Below, one piece after another: positions 37,301 through 57,697 of a DNA stretch of 64,000 nt. This stretch comes from Microbacterium testaceum (GTDB lineage: Bacteria > Actinomycetota > Actinomycetes > Actinomycetales > Microbacteriaceae): contig NZ_QDFT01000009.1 in assembly GCF_003075375.1 (NCBI RefSeq), forward strand, positions 1-64,000, given 5' to 3'. Position 1 is the stretch's first letter; each line of letters begins with the position of its first letter. A program made the position numbers and the translations under genes. The notes beneath the pieces are model-generated. The model had not been told where the DNA came from and made no database searches. It saw only the letters and a list, made by a program, of their open reading frames with translations.

Positions 37301-38947
37301 ATGAGCAGTCGCGCAGGACAGCCCGCCGAGGCATCCGATCTCATCGACATCGACGAACTGATCGCCGCTTACTACGACCGCAAACCGGATGCCACGGTGC
37401 CCGAGCAGCGCGTCGCCTTCGGCACCAGCGGCCACCGTGGATCGTCGCTGAGCACCAGCTTCAACGAGGACCACATCCTCGCGACCACCCAGGCGATCGT
37501 GGACTACCGCGCCGCGCAGGGCATCACCGGCCCCCTCTTCCTCGGCCGCGACACCCACGGTCTGTCGCTGCCGGCTGAGCGCAGCGCGATCGAGGTTCTC
37601 GTCGCCAACGGCGTCGACGTGCGCGTGGACGCCCGCGACTCGTGGGTGCCGACCCCCGCGCTCAGCCACGCGATCCTCACCTACAACCGCGACCGTGCCG
37701 CCGACGACGCGGGCCGCTCGGACGGCATCGTCGTGACCCCCTCGCACAACCCGCCCCGCGACGGCGGATTCAAGTACAACCCCCCGCACGGCGGCCCCGC
37801 CGACACCGACGCGACCGGCTGGATCGCCGACCGCGCCAATGCGCTGATCGCCGCCGGGCTCGAGGGCGTGCAGCGCACCCCGCACGCCGACATCGACCTC
37901 GAGAGCCTGGGCCAGTACGACTTCCGCGACGCGTACGTGCGGGATCTGGCATCCATCATCGACGTGGACGCGATCAAGAACGCCGGCGTGCGCATCGGCG
38001 CCGACCCGCTGGGTGGCGCATCGGTCGAGTATTGGGCGCTCATCGCCGAGGTCTACGGCCTCGACCTCACGGTCGTGAACCCCGAGGTCGACCCGACGTG
38101 GAAGTTCATGACGCTCGACTGGGACGAGAAGATCCGCATGGATCCCTCGTCCCCCTCGGCCATGGCCTCGCTCGTCGCCGCGCGCGACGAGTACGACATC
38201 CTCACGGGCAACGACGCCGACGCGGACCGCCACGGCATCGTCACGCCCGACGCGGGTCTGATGAACCCCAACCACTACCTGGCCGTCGCGATCGACTACC
38301 TCTTCTCGCACCGCGACGGATGGCCGACGGATGCCGCCGTGGGCAAGACCCTCGTGTCGTCGATGATCATCGACCGCGTCGCCGCCTCGCTCGGCAAGAC
38401 GCTCCTCGAGGTGCCGGTCGGCTTCAAGTGGTTCGTCCCCGGCCTGCTCGACGGATCCGTCGCCTTCGGCGGCGAGGAGTCCGCCGGAGCGTCGTTCCTG
38501 CGCAAGGACGGCACCGTCTGGACCACCGACAAGGACGGCATCCTGCTCTGCCTGCTCGCCGCCGAGATCCTCGCCGTCACCGGCAAGACGCCCTCGCAGC
38601 GCTACGCCGAGCTCGAGGCGGAGTTCGGCGCGTCGGCGTACCAGCGGGTCGACGCCCCGGCCTCGCCCGCGCAGAAGTCGGCCCTGTCCAAGCTGTCTCC
38701 GGATGCCGTCTCGGCCACCGAGCTGGCGGGTGAGCCCATCACGGCCAAGCTGTCGCACGCGCCGGGCAACGGCGCCGCGATCGGCGGCCTCAAGGTGCAG
38801 ACCGAGTCGGCGTGGTTCGCCGCCCGACCCTCGGGCACCGAGGACGTCTACAAGCTGTACGCGGAGTCGCTGCGCGGCGAGGACCACCTGCGCGAGGTGC
38901 AGGAAGAGGCGCGGGCCGTCGTTTCGGCCGCCCTCGGCCAGGCCTGA
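37301..38947 (+). CDS. pgm: Phosphoglucomutase (alpha-D-glucose phosphate-specific)
   Basis: A 548-residue alpha-phosphohexomutase interconverting glucose 1- and 6-phosphate. Catalytic serine Ser148 lies in [10 protein letters not shown]; the Mg-binding loop is [10 protein letters not shown], the sugar-binding loop [11 protein letters not shown], and the phosphate-binding loop [10 protein letters not shown]. Length matches E. coli Pgm. It links galactose (Leloir) and glycogen metabolism, which fits the galactoside systems nearby. A CAGACT box begins 12 bases before the ATG. Confidence 0.95.
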
Positions 38948-38971
38948 CGTACGGTCTTCTCAGCGGCGTCG

Positions 38972-39002
38972 CCCCTCGCGGGCGGCGCCGCTTTCGCGTG
39001 CG
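38972..39002 (+). terminator. Terminator after pgm
   Basis: AGCGGCG (38972-38978) with CGCCGCT (38996-39002), plus GCC/GGC inside, followed by TTTCG. Confidence 0.7.
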
Positions 39003-39012
39003 CCCGCGGCGC

Positions 39013-39120
39013 GCGCGGAGTGCGGGGGCGCGGGGGTGCGCGGGGCGCGGGGGTGCGGGGGGGGGCGCGGGGGTGCGGGGCGCCGGGGGCGCCGGGGATG
39101 CCGGGGGCCCGGGGTCGCGA
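39013..39120 (+). repeat. G-tract low-complexity block
   Basis: Irregular repeats of GCGGGGGTGCGGGGC-like units on the + strand, with more than ten runs of four or more G. Potential G-quadruplex. No coding signal. Confidence 0.8.
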
Positions 39121-39145
39121 CGGCGCGGGCGCGCGCGGGTCGGTG

Positions 39146-39222
39146 CTCGCCGATAAACGCCGATCCGTGCGAAACATGCGGCAACGCCGCGTGTGTGAGC
39201 ACGGAGGGCGTTTATCGGCGAG
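39146..39222. repeat. 77-bp palindromic element, copy 1
   Basis: A nearly full-length hairpin. The outer 16-bp perfect stem is CTCGCCGATAAACGCC (39146-39161) with 39207-39222. The middle stem is TCCGTGC (39164-39170) with GCACGGA (39199-39205). The inner stem is ACATGCGGC (39174-39182) with GCCGCGTGT (39186-39194), with one G-T pair. A second copy lies 139 bases downstream. Confidence 0.9.
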
Positions 39223-39284
39223 AGGGCAGCGGACCTCCGCCGCGCAGGAACCCCGCGGCGCGCGCGCCCGACCGTCCCGCCCGC

Positions 39285-39361
39285 CACGCCGATAAACGCC
39301 GATCCGTGCGAAACACGCGGTGACGCCGCGTGTTTCAGCACTGAGGGCGTTTATCGGCGAG
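39285..39361. repeat. 77-bp palindromic element, copy 2
   Basis: Same architecture: outer stem CGCCGATAAACGCC (39287-39300) with 39346-39359; inner stem GAAACACGCGG (39310-39320) with CCGCGTGTTTC (39326-39336), now a perfect 11 bp. Several differences from copy 1 in the inner stem keep or improve pairing, which argues that the folded form matters. Confidence 0.9.
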
Positions 39362-39370
39362 GGGGGGCGG

Positions 39371-39418
39371 GGATGCCGCGGCCCCGACGCTCCGCAGAAC
39401 GTCGGGGCCGTGGCATCC
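39371..39418. terminator. Bidirectional terminator between pgm and alcohol dehydrogenase
   Basis: A 19-bp stem (39371-39389 with 39400-39418) with one G-T pair and a 10-base loop; it begins GGATGCC and ends GGCATCC. It serves the leftward alcohol dehydrogenase and backs up the pgm terminator. Confidence 0.88.
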
Positions 39419-39433
39419 GGGCCGGATCGGGGA

Positions 39434-40480
39434 TCAGGCGGGGGCGAAGGTCTTCGCGTCGATGACGAAGCGGTAGCGCACGTCGCTCTTCAGCACGCGC
39501 TCGTAGGCCTCGTTGATCTGGTCGGCCGAGATGAGCTCGGTCTCGGGCGCGATGCCGTTCTCGGCGCAGAAGTCGAGCATCTCCTGGGTCTCGCGGATGC
39601 CGCCGATCGACGAACCCGCGAAGGAACGACGGTTGGTGAACAGCGTGAAGACCTGGATGGGCAGCGGCTCCGGCGGGGCGCCGACGTTGACCATTGTGCC
39701 GTTCAGCGCCAGCAGACCCAGGTACTGCTTGAGGTCGAGCGGCGCGCTGACGGTGTTGATGATGAGGTCGAAGTGCTTCTTCAGCTTGTCGAAGGTCTCG
39801 TCGTCCTTCGTCGCGTAGTAGTGGTCGGCGCCCATCTTCAGGCCGTCGTCCTTCTTGCTCAGCGTCTGCGAGAGCACGGTGACCTCGGCGCCCATGGCGT
39901 GGGCGATCTTGACGGCCATGTGGCCGAGACCGCCGAGGCCGACGACCGCGACCTTCTTGCCGGGGCCGGCGTTCCAGTGGTTCAGCGGCGAGTAGGTCGT
40001 GATGCCGGCGCACAGCAGCGGCGCGGCCTTCTCGTAGGGGATCGACTCGGGCACGCGCAGCACGAAGTGCTCGTCGACGACGATCTTCTCGCTGTAGCCG
40101 CCCTGCGTGATCGTGCCGTCGACGTCCTTGGCGCCGTACGTGCCGATGTTGCCCTTCTCGCAGTACTGCTCCTCGCCCGCGAGGCAGTTCTCGCACTCGC
40201 GGCACGAGTTGACCATGCAGCCGACGCCGACGCGGTCGCCGACCTTGTGGCTGGTGACCTCGGAGCCGACTTCGGCGACGGTGCCGACGATCTCGTGGCC
40301 GACGGTCAGCGGGTAGGGCACCTGGCCCCACTCGCCCCGGATGGTGTGGATGTCGGAGTGGCAGATGCCGGCGTAGGCGATGTCGATCAGGACGTCCTTC
40401 GGGCCGACCTCACGGCGCTCGATGGTCGTGGGCTCAAGGGGTGAGGTCGCGGACGACGCCGCGTAGGCGTTGACGTGCAT
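39434..40480 (-). CDS. Zinc-dependent NAD(P) alcohol dehydrogenase
   Basis: A 348-residue medium-chain dehydrogenase of the YahK/cinnamyl-alcohol type. Catalytic zinc ligands lie in [16 protein letters not shown] and GHEIVG, structural zinc cysteines in [15 protein letters not shown], and the Rossmann motif is [15 protein letters not shown]. These enzymes reduce aldehydes with NADPH; here possibly sugar- or lignin-derived aldehydes (inference). GAGGAG precedes the ATG. A palindrome at 40549 lies in its upstream region. Confidence 0.93.
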
Positions 40481-57608: not shown

Positions 57609-57631
57609 CGCCGTGCCCCCGGTTCGGGGCG

Positions 57632-57697
57632 GGTTCTTGCGCTCGGGGCGGAAATCTCGCGCCCCGAACGCAGAACGGCGCCCCGAACGCCAGAACC
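57632..57697. terminator. Long inverted repeat between tetR and the third LacI gene
   Basis: GGTTCTTGCGCTCGGGGCG (57632-57650) matches the complement of 57679-57697 at 17 of 19 bases; a third partial copy, CGCCCCGAACGCAGAAC, lies inside. It probably acts as a bidirectional terminator for the convergent genes. The rest of 57609-57747 holds no gene. Confidence 0.65.

Follow-up and report, generated by a model that had tools for sequence, protein, structure and literature searches.

A four-box palindromic repeat of Microbacterium and its element-flanked partner gene: a candidate REPIN-RAYT-like system with an unrelated enzyme

To our knowledge, REPIN-RAYT is the only system where palindromic repeats exist as a population maintained by an enzyme that is inherited vertically. 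REP sequences are short palindromes with a tetranucleotide head, and RAYT is a Y1 HUH transposase. According to the accessible text of two reports, RAYT genes are always flanked by two inverted REPs and, by the criteria used there, are found in gammaproteobacteria only (PMC2817692); they are single-copy and vertically inherited, and REPINs are also present in E. coli genomes without RAYT (PMC8049555). Inverted repeats are used differently by AbiEi, the antitoxin of a type IV toxin-antitoxin system: in the available portion of PMC3985639, the Streptococcus agalactiae protein binds, at its own promoter, a pair of 11-bp inverted repeats separated by 27 bp and represses itself. Here we describe a family of palindromic repeats in Microbacterium together with a partner gene, a repeat-enzyme system that follows the logic of REPIN-RAYT but is apparently of a new kind, its parts being unrelated. 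In the literature searched, with subscription papers mostly uncovered, no report links AbiEi, DUF559 or Vsr-like proteins to palindromic repeats and none deals with these repeats; Microbacterium is absent from the accessible part of PMC12306157. If this is a second, unrelated solution, the repeat-enzyme arrangement evolves repeatedly and its purpose becomes askable, a large and mostly unnamed protein family gains a testable function, and the DNA target of a member becomes predictable from the flanks of its own gene.

The window, a 64,000-nt stretch of Microbacterium testaceum DNA (contig NZ_QDFT01000009.1, positions 1 to 64,000), carries two copies of the element in the gap between pgm and a convergent alcohol-dehydrogenase-like gene. 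Their coordinates and non-coding placement are those given in an earlier note made from the sequence alone, and they are recovered as a 79-nt direct repeat of 91% identity (39148-39226 against 39287-39365). The outer stem, which that note had described as fully paired, is indeed so: arms 39146-39161 and 39207-39222 of copy 1 are 100% complementary. Major features are summarized in Table 1. Folding gives a single long interrupted hairpin for each copy on both strands, with stability z scores of -8.0 to -10.3 that 0 of 200 shuffles equalled in each of four foldings. The copies are 92% identical across a 73-bp core, while identity is 30% in the left and 55% in the GC-rich right 20-bp flank, so the element is a sharp-ended unit.

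Table 1. Features of the palindromic elements, their neighbors and the partner gene. Positions refer to the window unless a contig is named.
Feature	Position	Strand	Remark
Family-1 palindromic element, copy 1	39146..39222	.	67-bp core 39151-39217
Box 1, copy 1	39151..39160	+	CGATAAACGC; box profile
Box 2, copy 1	39170..39179	+	CGAAACATGC
Box 3 (inverted), copy 1	39189..39198	-	
Box 4 (inverted), copy 1	39208..39217	-	GCGTTTATCG on +
Family-1 palindromic element, copy 2	39285..39361	.	67-bp core 39290-39356
Boxes, copy 2	39290-39299, 39309-39318, 39328-39337, 39347-39356		
pgm, left neighbor of the copy pair	37301..38947	+	name from the earlier reading
Alcohol-dehydrogenase-like gene, right convergent neighbor	39434..40480	-	named from translation only
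Family-2 element	57622..57688	.	same four-box 67-bp layout, different box GTTCGGGGCG
Partner gene, 319-aa protein	G000 contig C2:40856-41812	-	between presumed nusG and rplK

Other suggestions made for the pair held in part. Compensatory change in the inner stems is seen within the family, where two-sided changes occur, but the difference between the two window copies includes a one-sided change from a T-G wobble to C-G. GC-rich inverted repeats do adjoin the pair where terminators had been named, but a consensus terminator scan requiring a T run found none near the copies. The idea of a structured RNA finds no support in any known Rfam family, since a search of 701 bp returned nothing at the gathering score and five sub-threshold matches, none of them inside the elements. 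A blastn search of plasmids gave zero matches. A separate inverted repeat with 27-nt arms, 85% complementary, lies at 39366-39423 between copy 2 and the dehydrogenase gene; it has no T run and is almost identical in the Microbacterium genome G023. On the other side, beside copy 1, an extremely G-rich low-complexity stretch (38995-39140) is missing in G023, whose locus holds one element.

The genome that contains the window (G000) is a 3.36-Mb draft of 107 contigs. A covariance model, R1, was built from an alignment (A1) of 26 of the 30 copies then known; in this genome it yields 80 strand matches, equal to 40 distinct copies, all with E<1e-10. They occupy 25 intergenic sites, alone or in clusters of 2-4, and none of the sites overlaps a gene predicted by our own codon-bias gene finder. 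Neighboring genes are convergent at 10 sites, tandem at 10 and divergent at 5. The 9-mer GATAAACGC occurs 67 times in the genome, every time inside an element by coordinates, compared with a single occurrence of the reversed control. An autonomous element sharing the same ends was rejected as a candidate, this exact 9-mer never being orphaned in the genome.

The family-1 unit is 67 bp long and has four boxes of 10 bp each, set on a 19-bp grid (10-9-10-9-10-9-10) in the orientation > > < <. Among 196 distinct 67-mers from the loci collected, conservation is confined to arm positions 1-10 and 20-29 and does not extend to the 9-bp spacers. Without a length constraint, a size of 67 bp is found in 115 of 116 well-matched elements; for the inner box, the offset is 19 in 116 of the left and 115 of the right arms. 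Chance palindromes were considered and rejected: among the 80 matches listed of 107 found in a scan for the end pattern, those from Microbacterium are 67 bp and those from other taxa are not. An attC-like integron site was also rejected as a candidate, the boxes being direct within an arm, unlike those of the usual attC layout.

Further copies with conserved pairing, which the earlier note had set beforehand as the test of its reading, are present, as the 40 copies of this genome and their covariation show. In 26 of them, 87.1% of the cells in 28 nested pairs are paired, and the covariation score is 0.146 against 0.097 when shuffled (0/500 shuffles reach it) and 0.035-0.055 for slid versions. 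Across the 196 67-mers, the first spacer pairs more often than independence predicts; at position 17 the values are 0.84 observed and 0.46 expected. Shared ancestry inflates covariation and co-evolution statistics alike. Two-sided changes occur in 10 of the 28 pairs, an unexceptional number, equalled in 35 of 500 shuffles. The covariation signal could come from selection for pairing or from correction of one palindrome arm by the other in the DNA, and either would yield it.

Hairpins this stable on both strands, with variable spacers that keep their pairing and 10 of 25 sites between convergent genes, might be bidirectional terminators or mRNA-stabilising structures kept at gene ends. We consider such a role for the transcript very unlikely, because the T-run terminator is absent, a hairpin needs neither the strict 67-bp length nor the 19-bp grid, and 5 of the 25 sites lie between divergent genes; it would also leave unexplained the lineage-specific boxes and the linkage to a gene described below.

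The covariance-model search for other copies that the earlier note had proposed found them widely: at E<=1e-4, R1 marks 105 of 366 Microbacterium genomes as element-positive. Plain blastn underestimates this spread, detecting the element in only 3 of 58 relatives. More distant genomes have the identical layout with other boxes; GCATAAACGC fills all four box positions in one copy of genome G007, and box types GAAACACC are found in G140 and G144. Many positions are shared between species. Seventeen of 20 loci from G023 and G016 align to element loci of G000, as do many of the best-scoring loci of other species. At the site between pgm and the dehydrogenase gene the copy number is two in G000, one in G023, two in G373 and three in G347, and the single, partly decayed copy of G023 aligns to window copy 2. 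Between species, copies that share a site have a mean identity of 0.81 (best match per site), only slightly above the 0.74 for other sites, and the orthologous copy beats the best copy from another site in 20 of 49 cases; the positions are thus old, and the sequences turn over or are homogenised. In genome G182, at least seven related elements form an array in which most are spaced by about 155 bp (C1:3545716-3546883).

The earlier note had offered a REP/BIME-like non-autonomous element with a possible RAYT. The first half of this suggestion fits the 40 intergenic copies, their clusters of 2-4, their palindromic form and the presence in G000 of a gene for a dedicated enzyme. The tie to RAYT failed. 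Palindromic, intergenic, clustered and dispersed copies are what ordinary REP or REPIN repeats moved by a RAYT would look like, but the Y1 transposase domain (PF01797) is found neither in G000 nor in any of 26 carrier genomes tested, against 5 of 14 control genomes, and this explanation is hardly credible.

The partner gene lies between neighbors that we recognised from their sequences and take to be nusG and rplK. It is flanked by elements on both sides in G000, G023 and G377, and also in the distant G007, where the boxes are different. Genus-wide, an ortholog of at least 300 bits is present in 33 genomes, all of which are among the 105 that are element-positive. All 30 best ortholog loci have an R1 match (E<=0.01) within 1.5 kb. 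The 30 close orthologs all adjoin nusG and/or rplK (26 both; four are cut by a contig end), and the genes of the partner family that we have seen are free-standing between other genes. At E<=1e-40, a threshold at which many matches are more distant homologs, 222 of 366 genomes have a protein match, namely 94 of the 105 that are element-positive and 128 of the 261 that are element-negative. Gene and element presence are thus far from perfectly linked at this threshold; part of the discrepancy may arise because R1 detects chiefly a single type of box. Such a match is missing from 11 of the 105 element-positive genomes, including G128, G176, G374 and G376 with very strong elements, and in G347 the partner gene is interrupted by a stop codon; by analogy with the REPINs of E. 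coli genomes without RAYT, these may be losses that left the repeats behind.

A further measure of linkage was the number of four-box palindromes lying no more than 350 bp from the gene, at loose and strict thresholds (given in this order). Close orthologs at the nusG locus (n=30) have them on both sides in 28 and 21 cases, on one side in 2 and 4, and on neither in 0 and 5. The corresponding numbers are 15 and 9, 3 and 8, and 2 and 3 for 20 distant Microbacterium homologs, which are 42-53% identical and mostly have palindromes with other boxes nearby, and 10 and 6, 4 and 6, and 10 and 12 for 24 loci from other genera of the order. Four further loci of the same genus have both sides in 3 and 2 cases and neither in 1 and 2. 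An order-wide set of 29 had included these four and L307, which is the same gene as L275 and was excluded from the recount. In comparison, when pseudo-genes are set into 20 arbitrarily chosen loci from these distant genomes, 19 have no palindrome, one has it on one side and none on both sides, at either threshold; the palindrome scan gave zero matches at 21 loci from other taxa, and strict thresholds gave 0/245 on Markov surrogates. The scan is imperfect: within the window, its strict setting detects copy 2 and the element at 57622 but not copy 1, and it also picks up a GC-rich repeat at 38963.

The 19-bp grid extends beyond the close orthologs. In 18 hairpins from 15 of the 20 distant Microbacterium loci, selected by pairing alone, arm self-similarity peaks at offset 19 (7.39 of 10 against 1.8-4.4), and in 24 hairpins from 16 of the 24 loci in other genera, selected likewise, the peak is again at 19 (5.83 against 2.2-3.8). 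Box similarity follows protein identity with a Spearman coefficient of 0.76 (2015 pairs, 64 loci, duplicate locus removed; 0/300 label permutations), to which common descent contributes and in which some box sets contain GC-rich false matches. Homologs of the gene occur in 98 of 149 genomes and 48 of 64 genera of the order. We regard the association of gene and repeats as well supported, and the two very probably form one system. In five loci (L098:5807-6787, L153:1204-2175, L248:1453-2424, L254:1204-2175 and L255:1480-2325) the end of the gene overlaps the downstream palindrome, into which it is apparently read, and the proteins end in residues of the DKR- or EKR-type.

The partner protein has two recognizable halves. 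PADLOC AbiEi profiles match residues 33-176 with an E value of 3.2e-11, and one of them, PDLC02228, matches 35 of 37 family members. Pfam and NCBIfam searches of the protein gave matches below cut-off or none; REase_MTES_1575 and DUF559 match the nuclease half below cut-off, and AbiEi_4 was found in one of the 37 members (E 0.0003). The Pfam namesake MTES_1575 was considered and rejected as an identity for the protein, being, in the part of PMC3710099 available, a multidomain HEPN-helicase protein distinct from it. A profile search of solved structures returned only two matches, with E values of 0.4 and 0.6. Across 37 homologs (alignment A2), E197, S200, R201, Q215, D228, G238-E239, D241-G242, K245-Y246, E261-K262, R264-E265 and R277-W278 are invariant. 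In an AlphaFold2 model of the L098 homolog (five sequences; pLDDT 83, pTM 0.81), residues 194-300 resemble the catalytic domain of the I-Bth0305I homing endonuclease (3r3p) with Z 10.8, residues 192-299 resemble Vsr (1cw0) with Z 9.5, and residues 12-189 give a middling match to AbiEi antitoxin (Z 7.4, rmsd 6.0); Foldseek alone finds I-Bth0305I with an E value of 0.02. On the evidence of the profiles and this model, the protein combines an AbiEi-like DNA-binding half with a Vsr/homing-endonuclease-like half and is a probable DNA-cutting enzyme.

Taken with the four-box repeat population, this dedicated protein is likely to constitute a REPIN-RAYT-like two-component system built on an unrelated enzyme. 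Binding, cutting, copying and autoregulation are activities that we infer for the protein. The AbiEi-like half would bind the boxes, and the Vsr/EDxHD-type half would nick or cut at or near the element in its extruded or its double-stranded form. Now and then, the repair of such a break, or replication across it, would produce a new copy of the 67-bp module, next to the old one or at a different intergenic site. The partner gene would stay put and be inherited vertically like RAYT genes, with the repeats as a slowly renewing population, and the upstream flanking palindrome would probably also allow the gene to repress itself, as with AbiEi. The repeats bound by AbiEi are 38 bp apart start to start, which is two 19-bp steps and the spacing of boxes 1 and 3; this analogy fits box recognition by the AbiEi-like half, and it may be a coincidence. 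We lean slightly towards the view that the enzyme copies the repeats. No insertion with an empty site or a target duplication was seen, so the case for element mobility is indirect.

The palindromes could instead serve as operators only, that is, as autoregulation, regulon or decoy sites of an AbiEi-type repressor whose nuclease half is degenerate or unrelated, and would then not be copied. The AbiEi precedent, as far as the available text of PMC3985639 describes binding to inverted repeats upstream of its own gene and repression, agrees with this, and so does a near-constant upstream distance: of the 28 loci of the nusG group with an upstream palindrome, 19 have it 65-72 bp ahead of the start codon. 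Palindromes are, however, found downstream as well, past the stop codon by 15 bp (median over all 50 loci); 10 of the 25 sites in G000 are convergent and only 5 divergent; the two window copies, 92% alike within dissimilar flanks, look like the product of unit copying; and residues of the nuclease half are invariant across 37 homologs. Operators without copying are therefore unlikely.

Another explanation is that palindrome, gene and palindrome form an autonomous transposon-like or homing unit of which the dispersed 67-bp copies are solo ends or miniatures. Such a mobile cassette would suit the fairly constant geometry, the homing-endonuclease-like fold and the paralogs found at other places with their own palindromes, but it is rather doubtful: with 30 of 30 close orthologs beside nusG and/or rplK, no recent movement of a whole cassette is seen in this group, and the genome contains no orphan of the exact family-1 9-mer. 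Like MITEs and solo IS ends, the elements are short non-coding units with terminal inverted symmetry; unlike them, they are almost wholly palindromic and of fixed length, and no target duplications were seen. I-Bth0305I and Vsr share with the partner protein the catalytic-domain fold of its predicted nuclease half, whereas the partner gene is fixed at one locus in the orthologs examined and accompanied by dispersed palindromes. The likeness to AbiEi antitoxin is in the N-terminal region, and the differences are the fusion to a nuclease-like domain and the placing of palindromes on both sides of the gene and genome-wide, where the available text on AbiEi has repeats of about 11 bp at its own promoter (PMC3985639).

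Comparison with REP/REPIN-RAYT returns us to the two-component reading. Both systems have clustered intergenic palindromes, an enzyme gene flanked by two repeats, a repeat sequence that tracks the enzyme sequence, vertical inheritance of the enzyme gene and, as far as the accessible parts of PMC2817692 and PMC8049555 describe it, repeats that persist without the gene. They differ in the enzyme, which is a predicted AbiEi plus Vsr/EDxHD-like nuclease here and a Y1 HUH transposase in RAYT; in the repeat, where a four-box palindrome on a 19-bp grid replaces the short REP palindrome and no GTAG/CGTC-type tetranucleotide head is found (the unit starts with CGATAAACGC and ends with GCGTTTATCG, and in the alignment the bases outside vary); and in their hosts, Microbacterium and other genera of the order as against the gammaproteobacteria. 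The full proposal, which we regard as evenly balanced between true and false, is that an AbiEi-fused Vsr/homing-type nuclease, itself immobile, copies a four-box 67-bp palindrome through the genome, that several such independent pairs can be present side by side in a genome, and that the class is widespread in the order and perhaps in the Actinomycetota, in convergence with REPIN-RAYT.

A second family within G000 bears on the matter of several pairs. Its element in the window has the same layout with a different box (Table 1), and a search of the own genome places family 2 at about 16 places. Its copies are densest on contig C1, where three of them lie to one side of a nuclease-gene paralog and a fourth lies to the other; this paralog is 31% identical to the nuclease gene, and the strict threshold counts one side only. 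Family 2 and the C1 paralog are an independent replicate in the same genome. G000 encodes further AbiEi-nuclease paralogs at C22:52474, C2:53782 and C46:17949. At strict thresholds no palindrome match was found near those on C22 and C46, both of which are near contig ends, and one was found near the paralog at C2:53782.
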